DNA of 64,000 nucleotides, from assembly GCA_009781005.1 (NCBI GenBank), contig WQYX01000002.1, forward strand, positions 62,001 to 126,000, read 5' to 3'. This DNA is from Polyangiaceae bacterium (GTDB lineage Bacteria > Myxococcota_A > Polyangia > Polyangiales > Polyangiaceae). A model generated the notes under the pieces. It saw nothing but the letters and a program-made list of their open reading frames with translations. It did no database searches and was not told where the DNA came from. The stretch's first letter is position 1, and every line of letters starts with the position of its first letter. Positions 10,515 to 64,000 of the stretch are shown here, piece after piece. The position numbers and the translations under genes were made by a program.

Positions 10515-10523
10515 TATCCCTGA

Positions 10524-10735
10524 GAGCATGTTGACCAGCCGTCGCGAGCGAATCGAGGCTAGGGCGGGCGCGAGCACCGCCGGACTCGAACTGTACGGAG
10601 TCCAGCGTGCTGGACGGAGTACAGTGAGAGCGACGGAGCGAAGCGAAGTGCACAGGCTTGGTGGCCTTTGAGTACGGAGCGCAGCGCCCAACCGACGCAT
10701 CGATTTGCGCAGCAGGCTGGCTGTCCTGCGTGTGG
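10524..10735 (+). repeat. Dispersed imperfect-hairpin element, copy 1 (outer stem type A)
   Basis: AGCATGTTGACCAGCCGTCGCGAGCGAATCGAGG...CATCGATTTGCGCAGCAGGCTGG. Internal nested hairpin CTGTACGGAGTCCAGCGTGCTGGACGGAGTACAG. The right outer arm has decayed into the downstream CDS. Confidence 0.8.
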
Positions 10736-12710: not shown

Positions 12711-12858
12711 TAGAGCGTGTAGGGCAGCCGTCGCGAGCGAATCGAGGCTAGGGCGGAGCGCGAGGAGCCCGCGTAAGCGTACTTTTCGTACGTGCGCAGG
12801 CACCGCAGCGCCCAACCGACGTATCGATTTCGCGCAGCAGGCTGGCGAACACGCTCTG
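12711..12858 (+). repeat. Dispersed imperfect-hairpin element, copy 2
   Basis: Outer stem TAGAGCGTGTAGGGCAGCC / GGCTGGCGAACACGCTCTG. Core GTCGCGAGCGAATCGAGG...TATCGATTTCGCGCAGCAGG. Confidence 0.85.
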
Positions 12859-15996: not shown

Positions 15997-17117
15997 CCTA
16001 AGAGCTCGGCGTAGAGATCGTCGTAGGCGCTTGCGACGATCTCGGGGGTATAGCGTGCATGATACATGTGCATGCCTTGGCGACCGATGGCGCGCGCGAT
16101 GTCCTCATTGGCAAGGAGTTCGATCACGTGCTCTGCGAGTGCATGAGGATCGCCTGGGTTGACCATCGGTGCAAAGTCGAACGTCTCGAGCGGACCGCCG
16201 CGAGCAACCACGAGGGGGATGCCAAGCGCCATCGCTTCGAGCAACACGAGCGGCAGATCGACTTTGCCATAGAGATCATCGACGGGAAACGCAACGACGG
16301 ACGCAATGGAGAGAAGATCGGCCATGCTCGAGACTTCGCCGAGGTGACGTGTCTTGGCTGCAGCGCCGCACCGATCGAGATCGCGCTCGATGATCCGCTG
16401 CGCGATCTTCGCGTCGCTCTTCTTCTTCCTGCACGCAAACACAATGGTTGTATCCGGAAACGCGCGCACGATGGCAGGCACGGCGGCGGCAACGGTTTGT
16501 GCTCCATGCGAAACCTCGTAGTCGCCCGGGTAGAGCACCACGGGGCCATCACCAATGTGGTAGCGCGCGCGAACGCGGGCACGTTCGTCTTGGGAGAGGA
16601 CTCTCGGAGCGCGCGCACACGGCGGGATCACGCGCAGCAGATCTGCGTTGACGCCAGCACCGAACAGACCTTGGCGCGTATGCTCCGAGAGCGTGACGAC
16701 GACGTCGCCAAAGATCCAGCGAGCTGCGCCGTCGAAGGTCCGTGGCGCACTTGCGACGGTCTGCACGACTCTGCCGCGCCAGCCAGCCGCCCGCCTCGCC
16801 ATCTTTGCGAAGAGCGCAACGCTCGACGATAGCGGGTTTGGTGCGAAGACGAAGTGCCATGCGTCGAGCGGATCACCCGTGAGCAGGCGCAACGCCACGC
16901 GTGCATTCGCCGTCACACTGGGTGCAAACCGACCCGCATCGCGATAGATCGGCTCGGCGCTGACGCGCGGGCCGATCGGCTCGCCGCCCTTCGTGATCAT
17001 CACCGCGGCGCGCGCGCGTGTCAGGTTCGCGGCGATGTCGCGCACGAGGTTCTTCGAACCATCGTTCCACGGCGGCGCCATCGGCTTCGACACGAAGAGG
17101 ATCCGAGGTTCAAGCAT
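15993..17117 (-). CDS. Glycosyltransferase (GT-B, group 1-like)
   Basis: MLEPRILFVSKPMAPPWNDGSKNLVRDIAANL...VDLPLVLLEAMALGIPLVVARGGPLET. Stop overlaps the downstream porin start. Track ORF starts at 17249, but homology starts at the ATG at 17117, inside a repeat. Confidence 0.85.
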   Translation of the reverse strand: MLEPRILFVSKPMAPPWNDGSKNLVRDIAANLTRARAAVMITKGGEPIGPRVSAEPIYRDAGRFAPSVTANARVALRLLTGDPLDAWHFVFAPNPLSSSVALFAKMARRAAGWRGRVVQTVASAPRTFDGAARWIFGDVVVTLSEHTRQGLFGAGVNADLLRVIPPCARAPRVLSQDERARVRARYHIGDGPVVLYPGDYEVSHGAQTVAAAVPAIVRAFPDTTIVFACRKKKSDAKIAQRIIERDLDRCGAAAKTRHLGEVSSMADLLSIASVVAFPVDDLYGKVDLPLVLLEAMALGIPLVVARGGPLETFDFAPMVNPGDPHALAEHVIELLANEDIARAIGRQGMHMYHARYTPEIVASAYDDLYAELLG

Positions 17118-17254
17118 GTTTACCAGCCTGCTGCGCGCCGCGATGCCTGCGTTGGACCCTGCGGTGCCTGCGCACGTACGAAAAGTACGCTTACGCGGGC
17201 TCCTCGGGCCCGCCTTGGCCTCGCGTCGCTCGCGACGGCTGGTAAACATGCTCT
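17113..17254 (-). repeat. Dispersed imperfect-hairpin element, copy 3 (outer stem type A, reverse orientation)
   Basis: AGCATGTTTACCAGCC...GGCTGGTAAACATGCT. Shares an identical 47-nt inner module with copy 2 (GAGGAGCCCGCGTAAGCGTACTTTTCGTACGTGCGCAGGCACCGCAG). Confidence 0.85.
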
Positions 17255-17283
17255 CAAGTTAGCCAGCCCGGTGCTCATACTTT

Positions 17284-18666: not shown

Positions 18667-18732
18667 GGGAGAGCCCACACTTTTTTCTGCATGACGGCTC
18701 GAGGTGTCAACAGCGTTTGAGTACCGCCGCTC

Positions 18733-18855
18733 GACCGCTTTCAAGTTGACGCGAGGTCGAGGCGGGGCCGAGGAGCGAACCGGAACAGCCTTGGTGGGCT
18801 TTGAGGACCGCACCGCAGGCCCCAACGATGAGATCGCGGCAAATCGAAAGCGGTC
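18733..18855 (+). repeat. Dispersed imperfect-hairpin element, copy 4 (outer stem type B)
   Basis: GACCGCTTTCAAGTTGACGCGAGGTCGAGGC...GATGAGATCGCGGCAAATCGAAAGCGGTC. Confidence 0.85.
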
Positions 18856-19714
18856 AATTCGAAGCGAGCAGACTCTCCAGTTGCTGTTGCGAAAACTCGT
18901 AAGACTTTTTGCAGTAGTCGCATTCGATCTCGAGCGGCTTTCCGCCTTCCATGAGCGACTCGATGTCGGCCTTTGGCAACGACGCAAGACTCGCGGCCAG
19001 GCGCTCCGCACTGCATTGGCAAGCGAAACGCACCTCTCTCTCGCCGACCTTCGTAGAAGGCATGCCGTAAAGCATCTCCTTGAGAAGCTCCTTGGGTGAG
19101 CCGGCGCCGCGGGCAAGCAATGGGACGATGTCCTCGAAGTCCTTGAGACGCTCGGTCATGATCGCGAGCGGCCCTTCGGCCACGTCGGGCAGGAGTTGCA
19201 CCATATAGCCGCCTGCGGCCGCAACTTGCCCATTCGAAAAATGCGCACCAATGGCAATCATCGTGAGCGTTTGCTCCGACTCCTGCATGTACGCCATGAA
19301 CGCGGACGACATGGCTTGCGAGCCTAGCGGCACGCTCACCACTCCTTGGTGGAGCGAGCCGTTGTGTAAAGTACGTGCAATCTGCAATAACCCGTGCCCG
19401 GCGAGGGAAAGCTCTTTGATGTTCGCCGGAAGCTGAATGAGCCCGCGCGCAGAGCCGTCCGGATGCGTGTCGGCGACCATGCGCGCACGCGGATTTTCGC
19501 GCTGGAGGATGGCTTGCAACCGATAATTGGGCGCCATGCTTTCTCGCACCAGAATGGCGCCGGTCAGCAAATCCGCGAATGTGCGCTGTAACTCGTTCGT
19601 CTCTGCGCGTTGGACGTCGAGCGCAGCGCGAACGGTGGCCGTCGTGTCAGCCACAATCACACGAAAAGCGCCGTCATCCGTCATGGCGCGGATCACGTTG
19701 TCTGCATGGAGCAC
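18854..19714 (-). CDS. hslO: Hsp33 redox-regulated chaperone
   Basis: ADNVIRAMTDDGAFRVIVADTTATVRAA...VRFACQCSAERL...IECDYCKKSYEFS (CxC + CxxC switch). GTG start at 19714, 13 nt after the upstream stop. Confidence 0.9.
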   Translation of the reverse strand: MLHADNVIRAMTDDGAFRVIVADTTATVRAALDVQRAETNELQRTFADLLTGAILVRESMAPNYRLQAILQRENPRARMVADTHPDGSARGLIQLPANIKELSLAGHGLLQIARTLHNGSLHQGVVSVPLGSQAMSSAFMAYMQESEQTLTMIAIGAHFSNGQVAAAGGYMVQLLPDVAEGPLAIMTERLKDFEDIVPLLARGAGSPKELLKEMLYGMPSTKVGEREVRFACQCSAERLAASLASLPKADIESLMEGGKPLEIECDYCKKSYEFSQQQLESLLASN

Positions 19715-32990: not shown

Positions 32991-33261
32991 GGCTTCCCAG
33001 ATGGTCGCGAAGCTTCCCAGATGGGTCGCGGAGTTTTCCAGACCGGATTTTGGCTCAAATTTTCGATCTCGAAGCCAGCGACCGGCTGTCCCAAGCTCGA
33101 AAGTGCATCTTTCTAGGCAAATTTCTGATCCGAGAAGCTTCCTTCCCATCTGGGAAGCTTCGAAGACCGTCTGGAAAGCTTCCTTCCCATCTGGGAAGCT
33201 TCGAAGACCGTCTGGAAAGCTTCCTTCCCATCTGGGAAGCTTCGAAGACCGTCTGGAAAGC
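32991..33261. repeat. Inverted/tandem repeat tract including 3 exact 41-bp units
   Basis: Units TTCCTTCCCATCTGGGAAGCTTCGAAGACCGTCTGGAAAGC at 33139, 33180 and 33221; inverted degenerate copies (CTTCCCAGATGG..., TTTTCCAGACCGG) at 32991-33047. Confidence 0.85.
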
Positions 33262-33344
33262 TCGGGGAGGGCAGGCACGAGGGCCTCTGCCCCTACAGCC
33301 AACTGACAACGTATGCGTAGGGGCGGCCCCCCGTGGCCGCCCTT
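33262..33344. repeat. REPIN-like pair of inverted GTAGGGGC hairpins
   Basis: GGCAGGCACGAGGGCCTCTGCCCCTAC ... GTAGGGGCGGCCCCCCGTGGCCGCCCT. Confidence 0.65.
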
Positions 33345-42613: not shown

Positions 42614-44776
42614 ATGCTTGAGGTCACCGACATCATCGATCGTGTGCGGGCCTACCAGCCGGCGGCAGACGCCGCCTTGATCCAGCGCGCGTACGACTTC
42701 AGCGCGAGGGCTCACCAAGGTCAGAAGCGCAAATCAGGGGAGCCGTACTTCGTGCACCCCGCGTCGGTTGCCGGCATCATCACCGAGCTCCGCCTTGACA
42801 CGGCGAGCGTTTGCGCCGGGCTGCTCCACGACGTCGTTGAGGACACGCTCGCCACCGTCGAAGACATCGAGCACGAGTTCGGCGGGGAGATCGCGTCGCT
42901 CGTCGACGGCGTCACCAAGCTCGGCAAGATCAACTTCACCTCGAGGGCAGATCACCAGGCCGAGAATTTCCGCAAGATGGTCGTTGCCATGGCGCGCGAC
43001 ATCCGCGTCTTGCTCATCAAGCTCTGCGACCGCGTCGACAACATGCGAACGCTCGAGCACATGAAACCGGACGCGCAGGAACGCATCGCGAGAGAGACGC
43101 TCGAGATCTACGCGCCGCTCGCCAACCGCCTCGGCATCCAAGCGTTCAAGTGCGAGCTCGAAGATCTGTCATTTCGCTGGCTCGAGCCCGATTCCTACGC
43201 CTCGGTCAAGAGCGCGGTTCAAACCACCAAGAAAGACCGCGACAAGTACATCCTCGAAGTCACCAAAACGCTTTCGAGCCGCCTCGCCGAACAAGGCTTC
43301 GCCTCCGAGGTCAACGGCCGCGCCAAGCACCTTTACTCCGTGTGGCGCAAGATGAAGGCGAACGACAGTGCGATCGAACAGATCCACGACATCATCGCCT
43401 TTCGCGTGCTGGTGGAGAGCGTTGGCGACTGTTACGCGGCGCTCGGCGTCGTTCATTCGAAGTGGACGCCCGTGCCGGGGCGCTTCAAAGATTACATCGC
43501 GCTGCCGAAACCGAACATGTACCAGTCGCTGCACACCACGGTCATCGGGCCGGGCCGCGAGCGCATCGAGATCCAGATCCGAACCCACGAGATGCATCGC
43601 GTGGCCGAACGCGGGATCGCAGCGCATTGGAAATACAAGGAGCGCCACGGCGGTGGAGTTGCAGCGGACGACGCGCAACGTTTTGGTTGGCTCCGTCAAC
43701 TCATGGAATGGCAAAAGGATCTCAAGGATCCGGCCGAGTTCCTCGAGGGAGTCAAAGTCGATCTCTTTCAAGACGAGGTCTACGTCTTCACGCCCAAAGG
43801 CGAGGTGCGCGTCTTTCCGAGGGGCAGCACGCCGGTCGATTTCGCCTTCGCGATCCATTCCGAGCTCGGCGAGCACATCACGGGCGCGCGCGTCAACGGC
43901 AAGCTCGAACCCCTGCGCTACAAACTCCATAACGGCGACGTTCTCGAGGTCGTCACCAGCTCTTCGCAGCAACCGAACAAGGATTGGCTCGACTTCGTCG
44001 TCACCACGCGCGCGCGCGCGAAGATCCGAAGTTTTCTTCGTCAAGAACAGCGCGACAAGTCGCTCAGGCTCGGGCGCGAGCTGCTCGAACGCGAGTTCCA
44101 GCGCGCAAGCGTGTCGCTCTCGAAGCTGCTCAAGAACGACAGCGAGCTTCGCAAGGTGCTCGAGACGGTGAGCGTTCAGAACATCGACGAGCTCTTCATC
44201 GGCATCGGCTACGGCAAAATCGATCCGAGCGACGTGCTCGACGTACTCGCGCCACCGTCGGCCGACGGGGTCAAGAGCGTGCCTCCCGAGCAGCTCCGCG
44301 AAGGACGCCTCGCCGGGTTCGTCCGCAAAATCAAGGGCGACGACGGTGGCATCCGCTTGAACGGCATCGACGACGTGCTCGTCCGCTACGCCAAATGCTG
44401 TAACCCGCTGCCGGGCGACGACATCCTTGGATTCATCACGCGCGGCCGCGGCGTCACCATTCATCGTCGCGGATGCCCCAAAGCGTTCGATACGGATCCG
44501 GAGCGCCGCGTGGAAATCACGTGGGACTCGAAGGCAAAGATCAACCGCGCCGTGCATCTGCGCGTCGTCACCGCGAACCGTCCCGGCATCCTCGCAACGG
44601 TGGGCCAAACCTTTAGTCAGATGGGCATCAATATCAGCGAAGCGACCTGCCGCGCCGGCGACGACGGCAAGGCGATCAACACATTCACATTCGTCTGTCA
44701 GGACTTGAACCAACTGAAGAGCGTGATGCGCTCACTGCAGAAGGTGCAGGGTGTGGTGATAGTTGAGCGCGCATGA
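42614..44776 (+). CDS. Bifunctional (p)ppGpp synthetase/hydrolase (RelA/SpoT)
   Basis: [31 protein letters not shown] (HD), synthetase, TGS ([33 protein letters not shown]) and ACT domains. Confidence 0.95.
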
Positions 44777-46176
44777 AAGTGACTGTCGTTGGCGGAGGGC
44801 TTGCGGGCTGTGAGGCGGCGTTTCAACTTGCCGAGCGCGGGATCGACGTCGAACTCATCGAGCAGAAACCGCTGTCGCGCACGCCCGCGCAAACGACCGA
44901 CAAGCTCTGTGAGCTCGTGTGCTCGAACTCGCTGCGCGGCGCGTCGCTCACGAACGCCGTTGGTCTCTTGAAGGAGGAGCTCCGGCGTGCGGGCTCACTC
45001 ATTGTCGAAGCCGCGGAGATCGCGAGAGTGCCTGCCGGTGGCGCTCTTGCCGTGGATCGAGACGTCTTCGCCAGCACCGTGACGGCGCGCATCCATGCAC
45101 ATCCCCGAATCCACGTTCGCCACGAGGTCGTCACGCGCTTGCCCGACGGAGCGGCCAAAGCACCGGTGATCCTCGCTACCGGTCCGCTCACCGGCGACGC
45201 GCTCGCAGCCGATCTCGCGCACGTCGTCGGTGCCGAGAACCTCGCATACTACGACGCGATCGCGCCCATCGTGAGCGCCGACTCGATCGCGTGGGACAAG
45301 GTCTTTCGGCAGTCGCGCTGGGGCAAAGGCGCACCGGTGACGGACGAAAGCGGCGACGAAACGCAAGATGCAACAGCGCTCGGCGACGAAGCGTACGTCA
45401 ATTGCCCATTCGACGAAGAAGGATACAAGACCTTCGTCCGCGCGCTCATGGATTCACAGAAGGTGGAGCCGCGCGCTTTCGAGGACGCGCGCTACTTCGA
45501 AGGCTGCCTGCCCATCGAAGTCATGGCCTCGCGCGGCGAGATGACGCTCGCCTTCGGTCCCATGAAACCCGTCGGGCTCACCGATCCACGCACAGGGAAA
45601 CGGCCGTACGCGGTCGTGCAGCTCCGTGCCGAAGACAAGATGCAAACTGCATACAATCTCGTCGGCTTCCAGTCCCGCATGACGCACGGAGATCAGGCGC
45701 GCATCTTCCGCATGATCCCCGGACTCGAAGACGCCGAGATCCTTCGCTACGGCAGCGTGCATCGCAACACGTTCATCGACTCACCGAAGTTGCTCGACGC
45801 GCGCATGCAGCTTCGTGCACGGAGCAACTTTTTTGTTGCAGGGCAGCTCGCAGGCGTCGAGGGCTATGTCGAGAGCTGCGCGAGCGGCTTTCTCTGCGCC
45901 GTGCTTCTTGCGCAGGCGCTCACGAATCACGCCGTCACGCCTCCCCCGGAGACAACCGCGCTCGGAGGCATTCGCACGCATCTGATGCGTGCAACCGAAA
46001 AGTTTCAGCCGTCGAACATCACCTGGGCGTGCATGCCTCCACCGCCGAATCGCAGACTCAAAAAGCACGATCGCTATCGAGCCATGGCAGACAGAGCACT
46101 CCTCGATCTCGACGCATGGCTGTCGACGGCACCGCTCGCAAAAGTCGCGCGCAATTTTAGACCGCTTTCAAGTTGA
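44773..46176 (+). CDS. trmFO: Methylenetetrahydrofolate-tRNA-(uracil-5-)-methyltransferase TrmFO
   Basis: [31 protein letters not shown]...[21 protein letters not shown]...[21 protein letters not shown] overlap with relA/spoT. Confidence 0.93.
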
Positions 46177-46328
46177 CGCGAGGTCGAGGCGGGGCCGAGG
46201 AGCGGACCGGAATAGCCTTGAAGGCTTTGAGGACCGCACCGCAGGCCCCCCTGAGGTCCCGCCATAGGCGGGCCGACAGCGCCGAAGGCGCCGTCGATGC
46301 CGAGATCGCGGCAAATCGAAAGCGGTTA
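46159..46328 (+). repeat. Dispersed imperfect-hairpin element, copy 7 (outer stem type B)
   Basis: AGACCGCTTTCAAGTTGACGCGAGGTCGAGGC...GAGATCGCGGCAAATCGAAAGCGGTT, with internal CCCGCCATAGGCGGG and GGCGCCGAAGGCGCC insertions relative to copy 4. Confidence 0.85.
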
Positions 46329-49438: not shown

Positions 49439-51325
49439 ATGACGACGCAGGTGACGCCTCAATCGAGCTCCGCGCTCGAGGCGCCGGCGGGCGATACGAC
49501 CGTCCGGTCGGTGCGCTCGCGGATCGAGTGGCTCGGGCTCGCCGCTCTCGGCATCGTCGCCGTGCTCGTCTTCTGGGTCTTCGACGCCCTGCCCTTCCAA
49601 GATCTGCCGGCTCACGCGGGGCTCATCGCGATGCGCCACAGGTACGCCGAATCGTCGTTCGAGCAACGCTTCTACGTGCTCGCTCCGCACGTCGGCCCGT
49701 ACTCGCTCTTTCGATTTCTCGGTGAGGTTTTCGTTCGCGTCGTCGGGCCACTCGGAGCGGTGCGCGCCCTAGCCACGCTGCCCGTCATCGCGACGCCGCT
49801 CGCCCTGCTTTTCGCGCGGCGAAGGCTCTACGAAGATCATTCGCCGGCGTTCGGCTTCATCGGCCTGACTCTGTCTTTCAGCCTGATGACGCTGCTCGGT
49901 TTTGCGAGCTACTTGCTCGGCGTCGCCGTGATGCTCGTCGGTTTGACGCTCTGGCTCGAACTCCTCGTTGCAGCGGACGACGGCGCTCCGAACCTTCGCC
50001 GGCGCGAATTCGTCATGGCCGTGTTCACGCCCTTCATTTTCGTCGCGCACGGACATGCGTTCGTGCTCTTCCTCGTCTGCGCGGGGGTCGCGTGCCTCGC
50101 CGCCGGCAACGTTCGCGAGCGCCTCATGCGGCTCTGGGTGCTCGCGCCGGCCGTGGGACTCGCAGCTTGGGTCGCGTGGATCGAGCGCGGAACCACCACG
50201 CCGCCAGGATCCTTACCCGTCGTGCCTCGGCTGGCGCCTCTGTTTCACTCGTTCACGGAGAAGCTTGGCCTGCTCGTGACGCCAACGCTCATGACACGCA
50301 GCGGAATCGATTTTCTTATTTCCATATTCATTTGGATTTTCACGATCGTGAGCACCGTGTTCACCGTCCGCTCGCTGCGCACTCCGGCGCGAATCAAGAA
50401 CGGAGTTCAGAGAGAATATTCACGAGACCGCTTTCAAGTTGACGCGAGTTCGAGGCGGGGTGGGATGCGACCGGACTCGAACTGTACGGAGTCCACGAAG
50501 TGGACAGAGTACAGTGAGAGCGACGGAGCGAAGCGAAGTGAACAGCCTGCTTCGGCTTTGGTGCGTGTGCTGGATGGCACACGCACACGCCGTCGCACGG
50601 CTCCGTCAGAGGCCGTACCGCAGCCGCCAACGACGAAATCGCGTCAAATCGAAAGCGGTCTAGCCGCGGACGTGCGCCATAGCCGCGCGCTCTACGCATC
50701 GGCGGCGGTCCTCTTGCTCGCATTTCTCGCACTTCCGCATGCCGTTGGGTGGTTCGGATTCGTCGACGGCCGTCTCGTTCCCTTGGTCCTCATCCTCCCG
50801 CTTCTCGGGATCCGCCGCGCAACCCTTCCGCGCGCGCTCGTGAGGCTGCTCGACACGGGCGCACCCGTCTGCGCTGCAACCATCGCCCTCTTGGCCATGA
50901 TTGCATCTTACAAGTTTCAGGCAGAAGCCTCCGGCTTCCATGAAGTGCTCGCGCACGTGCCAGCGAGAGCAAGCCTCTTGAACCTCCCGCTCGATCCGAA
51001 CAGCGAGATCTTCACCGCGCATCCGTTCGTCCACTACGACAAGCTCACCCTCGCCGAGCGTCCCGTCGTCGTCAGCGACATCTGGTTTCACCAGGGCTCG
51101 GCGCTCTATCCAACACCGGAGAACCCAGCGGTCCGCCTTCCTTCGAGTTACAGCGAAAGCGATCTCAAAGAGATTGATTGGCCCGCCTACCACCTTGACG
51201 ATTGGGACTTCGTCCTCATTCGCACCAAGCCATCCGCCGGGCAGCCTTCCACACCCAACAGTCTCGTGCTCGAAGAGCATCGCGGGGGCTGGTGGCTCTT
51301 TCGGCAGGCCGCCCCAACTCAATGA
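49439..51325 (+). CDS. Polytopic membrane protein carrying an in-frame repeat element
   Basis: Multiple TM segments before (to about 50390) and after (from about 50690) repeat copy 11; ORF continuous through the element. Confidence 0.7.
   Translation: MTTQVTPQSSSALEAPAGDTTVRSVRSRIEWLGLAALGIVAVLVFWVFDALPFQDLPAHAGLIAMRHRYAESSFEQRFYVLAPHVGPYSLFRFLGEVFVRVVGPLGAVRALATLPVIATPLALLFARRRLYEDHSPAFGFIGLTLSFSLMTLLGFASYLLGVAVMLVGLTLWLELLVAADDGAPNLRRREFVMAVFTPFIFVAHGHAFVLFLVCAGVACLAAGNVRERLMRLWVLAPAVGLAAWVAWIERGTTTPPGSLPVVPRLAPLFHSFTEKLGLLVTPTLMTRSGIDFLISIFIWIFTIVSTVFTVRSLRTPARIKNGVQREYSRDRFQVDASSRRGGMRPDSNCTESTKWTEYSESDGAKRSEQPASALVRVLDGTRTRRRTAPSEAVPQPPTTKSRQIESGLAADVRHSRALYASAAVLLLAFLALPHAVGWFGFVDGRLVPLVLILPLLGIRRATLPRALVRLLDTGAPVCAATIALLAMIASYKFQAEASGFHEVLAHVPARASLLNLPLDPNSEIFTAHPFVHYDKLTLAERPVVVSDIWFHQGSALYPTPENPAVRLPSSYSESDLKEIDWPAYHLDDWDFVLIRTKPSAGQPSTPNSLVLEEHRGGWWLFRQAAPTQ
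50425..50661 (+). repeat. Dispersed imperfect-hairpin element, copy 11 (outer stem type B), in frame inside a CDS
   Basis: AGACCGCTTTCAAGTTGACGCGAG...GAAATCGCGTCAAATCGAAAGCGGTCT, 237 bp = 79 codons. Inner module shared with copy 1. Confidence 0.88.
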
Positions 51326-58924: not shown

Positions 58925-59461
58925 GTGACCGACGACGCGCAGGCCATCACGCAATGGCTCGCCGTCATCGACGAGATCTCGTACTACGAGCTCTTTCGCG
59001 TGACGCCAGCGGCAAGCTTCGACGATCTGCGCGCGGCCTTTCACGCCTTCGTCGAAGACTTCCACCCGGACGCACACTACTGGCGCGACCCAGGCGAACA
59101 AGCGGCCATCGGCGTTGTCTTCCGGCGCGGCACCGAGGCGTACCGAATCTTGTCCGATCCGTCGCTCCGCGCGCGCTACGACGAAGGACTGCGAGCCGGC
59201 ATTTTGCGGCCTGAGCTGCTCGTCCTCGAAAACCCCGCGAGCACTCCATCGAGGACGTCGATGCGCGCACGCCTCATCGACCAGATCCGCATGCCGAGCG
59301 CACGCCCCTTCGTTCTGCGCGCCGAGGAATTATTCAAAAAGGGGGATTTGAAGCAGGCAAAGATTCAGCTCGTCATGGCTATGCACTTGGACGCGAACAA
59401 TCCGGCGCTCGAAGCCTTCGCGAAAGAGCTCGAGGAGGCAATGAAGGCCCAAAAGACGTAG
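58925..59461 (+). CDS. DnaJ-domain-like protein
   Basis: SYYELFRVTPAASFDDLRAAFHAFVEDFHPDAHYW...AYRILSDPSLRARYDEGL; HPD motif; 2 nt after the Hsp70 gene. Confidence 0.8.
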   Translation: MTDDAQAITQWLAVIDEISYYELFRVTPAASFDDLRAAFHAFVEDFHPDAHYWRDPGEQAAIGVVFRRGTEAYRILSDPSLRARYDEGLRAGILRPELLVLENPASTPSRTSMRARLIDQIRMPSARPFVLRAEELFKKGDLKQAKIQLVMAMHLDANNPALEAFAKELEEAMKAQKT

Positions 59462-59500
59462 GTCTGGAACGATGAGATCGCGTCAAATCGAAAGAGGTCT
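59461..59500 (+). repeat. Dispersed hairpin element, copy 12: right-end remnant (type B)
   Basis: GAACGATGAGATCGCGTCAAATCGAAAGAGGTCT directly after the dnaJ-like stop. Confidence 0.6.
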
Positions 59501-63417: not shown

Positions 63418-63554
63418 GGAAATCTCCTTGCGCGCGCGAATCTACTTGCCACACGCGAATTATCAACCCAGAACGGCCCGGCTTGACCCCGCGGGGCCGC
63501 ACGCTAGCGTTCTCAAGACGCGCGCAAGGAGCATCCAGCGTTTTGAGCATTTTA

Positions 63555-63698
63555 AAAGCATGTCTACCAGCCGTCGCGAGCGGACCGAGGCTAGGGCGGA
63601 CGCGAGTACCGCGCGGAACAGGCTTGAAGGCCTTTGAGCACGGAGCGCAGCGCCCAACCGACGCATTGGTCTGCGCAGCAGGCTGGTAAACATGCTTT
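63555..63698 (+). repeat. Dispersed imperfect-hairpin element, copy 13 (outer stem type A)
   Basis: AAAGCATGTCTACCAGCCGTCGCGAGCGGACCGAGG...CATTGGTCTGCGCAGCAGGCTGGTAAACATGCTTT. Confidence 0.9.
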
Positions 63699-64000
63699 CA
63701 GAACCGATCGTTTTGGCCGTTGTTGTGGCGGCCGTCGGCTCTCTCTTCGCCTCGGCCGACGCAGCGCTGACGTCCTTGCCTGAAGTGCGGCTTCAGACTC
63801 TCCTAGAAAAAAAGGAGCGAGGTTTTCTCCGCTTCTCGGCAAACAGGCAGCGCCTTCTCGCGCGCTGGCTCGTGCTACGTGTACTCTGCATCAGCACCGC
63901 TTCGGTGCTCGTTCTACGGGCGCTCGGAAGTGCGCTCGGTATCGCGGCAGCCGCTGCAGTCTCGGTGTTCGCATCCGTGCTGACGTACGGAACGTTCACC
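63692..64000 (+). CDS. DUF21/CNNM-CorC-like membrane protein, N-terminal part (runs off the window)
   Basis: MLSEPIVLAVVVAAVGSLFASADAALTSLPEVRLQTLLEKKERG...; open to the window edge, so absent from the track. Confidence 0.65.
   Translation, partial: MLSEPIVLAVVVAAVGSLFASADAALTSLPEVRLQTLLEKKERGFLRFSANRQRLLARWLVLRVLCISTASVLVLRALGSALGIAAAAAVSVFASVLTYGTFT

Follow-up and report, generated by a model that had tools for sequence, protein, structure and literature searches.

A probable in-frame insertion of a repeated palindromic element in a membrane-protein gene of a Polyangiaceae bacterium

Rickettsia palindromic elements (RPE) are palindromes of ~100-150 bp with terminal inverted repeats that lie between genes or in frame inside unrelated conserved genes. 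The in-gene copies are translated in a preferred frame, and certain families or subfamilies make up most of them (PMC2229807, PMC10969869). The ERIC, YPAL and NEMIS MITEs are likewise small hairpin repeats, with terminal inverted repeats (TIRs), TA-rich ends, open frames and in-frame fusions; one size class of NEMIS occurs in genes and another does not (PMC2229807). The GTAG and CGTC REPs and their RAYT form a further group of high-copy palindromes, some of which reside within ORFs, including replication and repair genes (PMC3733652). Finally, compact double hairpins are known from organelles as the mitochondrial double-hairpin, or repetitive hairpin-forming, elements (PMC2800124).

Here, we describe a palindromic repeat family, family A, with one complete copy inside a membrane-protein gene of a Polyangiaceae bacterium. 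The window, the whole stretch of 64 kb of DNA that was analysed, contains this focal copy alongside further repeats:

49439..51325, + strand: host gene, a 628-aa polytopic membrane protein (ORF list, Pfam, orthologues, hydrophobicity)
50425..50661, + strand: in-frame element of 237 bp, a composite palindrome AGACC..GGTCT of the TT subfamily
50425..50447, + strand: left terminal inverted repeat of the focal copy, L end AGACCGCTTTCAAGTTGACGCGA (family alignment)
50474..50538, + strand: nested module M66, CTCGAACTGTACGGAGTCCACGAAGTGGAC..GAAGTGA, net 63 bp in the TT context (185-bp vs 122-bp copies; boundaries approximate)
50561..50608, + strand: nested double-hairpin module M49, GTGCGTGTGCT..AGCACACGCAC ACGCCGTCGCACGGCTCCGTCAG (170-bp vs 122-bp copies; boundaries approximate)
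50639..50661, + strand: right terminal inverted repeat of the focal copy, R end TCGCGTCAAATCGAAAGCGGTCT (covarying pairs)
18732..18856, + strand: base-type family-A copy, 125 bp, between Hsp33-like and CCA-adding-enzyme-like genes (translations inspected)
46159..46328, + strand: family-A copy at the 3' end of a trmFO-like gene (44773-46176)
near 59425-59500: decayed family-A copy
10521-10721, 12712-12830, 17095-17257 (- strand) and 63552-63714: family B palindromes, CGTCGCGAGCGAATCGAGGCTAGGGCGG arm
33135-33262: tandem array of a 41-bp unit in three perfect copies, register AAGCTTCCTTCCCATCTGGGAAGCTTCGAAGACCGTCTGGAAAGCT

Family A shares with RPE a base unit of 125 bp, a long hairpin with covariation and terminal inverted repeats, as well as in-frame insertion in conserved genes whose orthologues are without the element and a certain subfamily that accounts for most in-gene copies. 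It differs in that its host belongs to another phylum with another base composition and GC content, and in that its copies are composite, with hairpin modules nested at several sites and a net multiple of three kept in genes. Moreover, each of two genomes carries several hundred copies of family A, with no detectable target duplication. The likeness to RPE that a first-pass annotation of the window had pointed out thus holds for the mode of insertion, in frame and with orthologues that are without the insert. In this respect family A appears to work like RPE, an analogy that does not extend to a claim of membership. Module M49 is, by inspection, of similar shape to the mitochondrial double-hairpin elements; it is bacterial, whereas the known elements are organellar.

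The focal segment is one full copy of a repeated palindrome whose abundance lies far beyond chance. The family-A end ACCGCTTTCAAGTTGACGCGA, allowing up to 2 mismatches, has 311 matches (150 + 161) in the 4.77-Mb host genome and its reversed control has none, while a sister genome of the same genus (G009) has 268. No match was found in 56 other relatives, ten of which belong to the same genus. The exact element end and the M66 core have no match in IMG/VR, nor does the element in a plasmid collection, and a partial search of the literature yielded no description of the repeat in Myxococcota. The label 'copy 11' that the focal segment first received comes from a numbering that mixed two families; 50425-50661 is a complete family-A copy. 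For the second family, B, one arm was matched 78 times across 1.98 Mb of host sequence and twice across 0.37 Mb from the sister genome, and one family-B copy is nested within family-A ends (G000 C21).

Most family-A copies are ~125 bp long and have imperfect terminal inverted repeats, with an L end AGACCGCTTTCAAGTTGACGCGA and an R end TCGCG[T/G]CAAATCGAAAGCGGTCT. When copies of 119-122 bp are aligned, they form one long interrupted hairpin of 37 pairs in which 99.6% of cells are paired. In 11 of these pairs both partners have changed; columns 43/84, for example, read G-C in 69 copies but C-G in 16. Columns 62-67 make up a terminal loop whose sequence and length are hypervariable, and the loop length sets the total of 119-122 bp. 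Folding of the 125-bp base unit gives z = -4.58, and that of the focal 237-bp copy z = -9.57, with 0/200 shuffles as good. Some copies are of an LL type, with the L end on both sides and the interior inverted relative to one end (G000 C3 99168, C6 63848), which suggests inversion between the arms.

In longer copies, additional modules are found at defined positions, and the focal copy is composed of the base hairpin, M66 and M49. The extent of M49 can also be given as GTGCGTGTGCT..AGCACACGCACACGCCGTCGCACGGCTCCGTCAG; its net contribution is +48 bp, since one adjacent A is missing in the alignment with a 185-bp copy. M49 occurs in two different positions within the base unit, plus once in the unrelated family B. 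The 185-bp copy, which lies in a thioesterase gene, is 97% identical to the focal copy over 184 bp and differs from it by M49 minus one base, an identity from which we take the focal copy to be recent. M66 is found without family-A ends in freshwater Myxococcota MAGs (L122, L123, L125), and its core is also present in two other Polyangiaceae genomes (G064 and G235). In the freshwater contig L122 it seemed by eye to lie within a serine-recombinase-like reading, yet no ORF of at least 100 aa was listed through M66 on that strand, and we make no claim of in-frame insertion there. These sequences suggest that M66 may be a separately mobile small hairpin.

Our preferred reading, to which we assign a probability of about 0.88, is that a non-autonomous palindromic mobile element inserted in the hydrophilic loop of an existing gene and was retained there as an in-frame loop of 79 residues, its length being a multiple of three. 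The hairpin-forming element, with several hundred copies in the host genome, would move as DNA by means of an enzyme supplied in trans, and in the focal case it would have entered the loop between two membrane segments of the pre-existing gene. Mobility is argued from distribution, as the searches turned up neither a transposase acting on the family nor an autonomous copy nor a target-site duplication. Among 95 copies, with offsets of 0-3 and lengths of 1-8, there was no consistent excess of target-site duplications over shuffled pairing, and the element ends prefer TAG/CTA. A search for orphan ends 450-5000 bp apart in 2.35 Mb of the two genomes revealed no convincing autonomous copy. The Y1/RAYT transposase was considered as a mobiliser: there is a single Y1_Tnp gene in the host genome and no match in the sister genome with its 268 ends, so this enzyme does not seem to explain the family.

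These observations also bear on the alternative of a strict assignment to the IS630-like MITEs or the RAYT-mobilised REPs, which we regard as rather unlikely. It is favoured by the terminal inverted repeats, by copies that are small and numerous, by ends rich in TA and by the one Y1_Tnp gene of the host genome. Like ERIC, YPAL and NEMIS, family A is hairpin-forming and has in-frame fusions and a size class found in genes; unlike them, it shows no detectable target-site duplication and no partner IS was found. Similarly, family A agrees with MITEs in its small size, TIRs, high copy number and want of a transposase gene, and strict membership fails because target-site duplication is not significant. 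As with the REPs, its high-copy palindromes are also found inside replication and repair genes (LigD, ImuB), but its unit of at least 125 bp is several times larger than the 20-40 bp tagged hairpin, and the sister genome is without a Y1_Tnp match. Nor does any long copy in the 2.35 Mb carry a gene between matching ends.

At the focal gene, insertion of the element is supported by comparison with relatives. The gene belongs to no named family, its sole Pfam match being a sub-threshold one to DUF6057. As first annotated, the segment measures exactly 237 bp, or 79 codons, and the listed ORF is free of stops across it; it is bounded by AGACCGCTTTC and the exact inverse, GAAAGCGGTCT, and encodes the peptide DRFQVDASSRRGGMRPDSNC...SRQIESGL. 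The element spans from the third base of codon 329 to the second base of codon 408, and with these corrected boundaries the added peptide is DRFQVDASSRR...SRQIESGL, 79 residues, the end being as originally given and the start shifted slightly. The peptide is hydrophilic (mean Kyte-Doolittle -1.30) and slightly basic, and it is flanked by hydrophobic segments at ~289-313 and ~415-439 of the 628-aa protein, which bears out its earlier placement in a hydrophilic stretch between membrane segments. An AlphaFold2 model of the protein from two aligned sequences only was uninformative (mean pLDDT 34.6). Homologues are present in all 11 other same-genus genomes, in genome G001 only as two contig pieces, and in several more distant relatives; within the genus, identity over the flanking blocks is 64-75%. 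The alignment of orthologues that had been proposed as a check shows that every relative's homologue covering the site is without residues ~329-407; judged by sequence, the segment is not an ancestral loop. Since relatives have a short loop of variable length and sequence at this place, an exact empty site at the focal gene is not recoverable.

The gene itself has no further disruptions. Compared with the sister genome, dN/dS is ~0.20 for the N part (dS 0.87, dN 0.18) and ~0.14 for the C part (dS 1.17, dN 0.16). By these values, which average over the time preceding the insertion too, both halves of the gene are under purifying selection. It has to be considered that the interrupted gene was already non-functional and its open frame coincidental, given that a stop-free frame of 237 bp is expected in ~6% of shuffles. 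The dN/dS values of the two halves and the intact remainder of the gene argue against such a pseudogene, as do at least eight other genes with the same pattern, and we consider this explanation very improbable.

These other genes emerged from a context census of 1.98 Mb of the host genome (~41%) and 0.37 Mb of the sister genome. As a score of coding potential for each flank lacked the strength to assign all copies, ORF continuity and orthologues were used. In this way, eight further mid-gene copies with orthologue support were found, seven in the host genome and one in the sister genome. From inspection of the translations, the interrupted genes encode LigD, a DNA methyltransferase (the sister-genome case), a diacylglycerol-kinase-like protein, an ApaH-like phosphatase, a thioesterase, a LuxE-like protein, ImuB and RimI. 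When the flanks of each copy are joined, homologues in relatives extend on both sides of the junction and are without the element. The LuxE-like gene carries an exact insertion of 42 codons (SAAP/../KG vs ASPKG in the sister genome). LigD is a special case, in which relatives carry the ligase part between the flanks; in the host LigD-like gene (G000 C14 near 51627), the phosphoesterase and polymerase parts are joined through the element and the ligase part is missing.

All nine mid-gene copies, the focal one included, keep the frame: 233, 119, 122 or 185 bp lie between ACC and GGT, for a net multiple of three. They are also all stop-free in one frame of the element, GAC CGC TTT (DRF...ESG), in either orientation. 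Lengths of this class are found in 9/9 mid-gene copies vs 17/105 other complete copies (Fisher p = 4.8e-7), a figure that is partly due to ascertainment because the requirement of an ORF running through the element favours such cases. We therefore sought copies of other lengths with same-strand coding sequence at both edges, and those examined separate distinct genes, for instance the end of the Hsp33-like and the start of the CCA-adding-enzyme-like gene. With a simple coding model, no gene split out of frame by an element was found in ~41% of the host genome. Several copies whose length is not a multiple of three lie directly at gene 3' ends and supply these ends, as in the trmFO-like gene (44773-46176), whose stop codon is contained in the copy at 46159-46328.

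Removal of the element at the RNA level, as an intron-like or bypassed segment whose coding content is irrelevant, is likewise very improbable: a very stable hairpin could bring the two ends together and 237 bp fits the range of small RNA-processed inserts, but neither a length divisible by three nor an open frame would then be required, all nine mid-gene copies have both in one specific frame, the copies of other lengths that were examined are not within genes, and no Rfam family, known intron RNA families included, matches at the gathering threshold across the whole 64-kb window. Between the two outcomes initially envisaged, tolerance as peptide or removal from the RNA, the comparison of copies thus favours an insert that would be translated and tolerated. 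With insertion and retention in frame as the preferred reading, the focal copy would have been kept because its net length, 237 bp, divides by three and because its open frame is the one in which the gene is read. The full-length protein would still be encodable, with a hydrophilic loop of 79 residues that is presumably made and tolerated, and out-of-frame insertions would be purged by selection.

The focal copy belongs to a minor subfamily, TT, defined by GCGAGTTCGAGG in the arm; the GG type has GCGAGGTCGAGG in the arm. There are 12 exact GCGAGTTCGAGG matches across the whole host genome. All 8 complete TT copies that were read in the host have lengths that are multiples of three, and in each the DRF frame lacks stops on either strand; among composition shuffles, ~6% keep a 237-bp frame open on one strand and 0.5% on both. 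Half of the sister genome's TT copies (4/8) are 121 bp long, not a multiple of three, and mostly not open. Host copies lie in genes in 6/8 cases for TT (five mid-gene, one in frame near the start) vs 3/97 for GG (p = 1.4e-6), with the proviso that TT copies share ancestry and that their in-gene counts and frames are not independent events. It is conceivable, and we put this forward tentatively, that the TT lineage has become adapted to protein-coding genes: the base unit and its modules would sum to a multiple of three, the frame would be open on both strands, and the element could enter in either orientation as a recurrent source of protein segments.

Mobile palindromes inserted in frame are best known from Rickettsia and its relatives, where they may be an oddity of reduced intracellular genomes or reflect a general way for proteins to acquire segments. 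A family of several hundred copies in a phylum of free-living type with large genomes, together with a gene-enriched subfamily and empty sites in a sister genome, makes this question testable. It can now be asked how frequently such elements insert in genes, which of the insertions survive, and whether an element evolves compatibility with the genes it enters.
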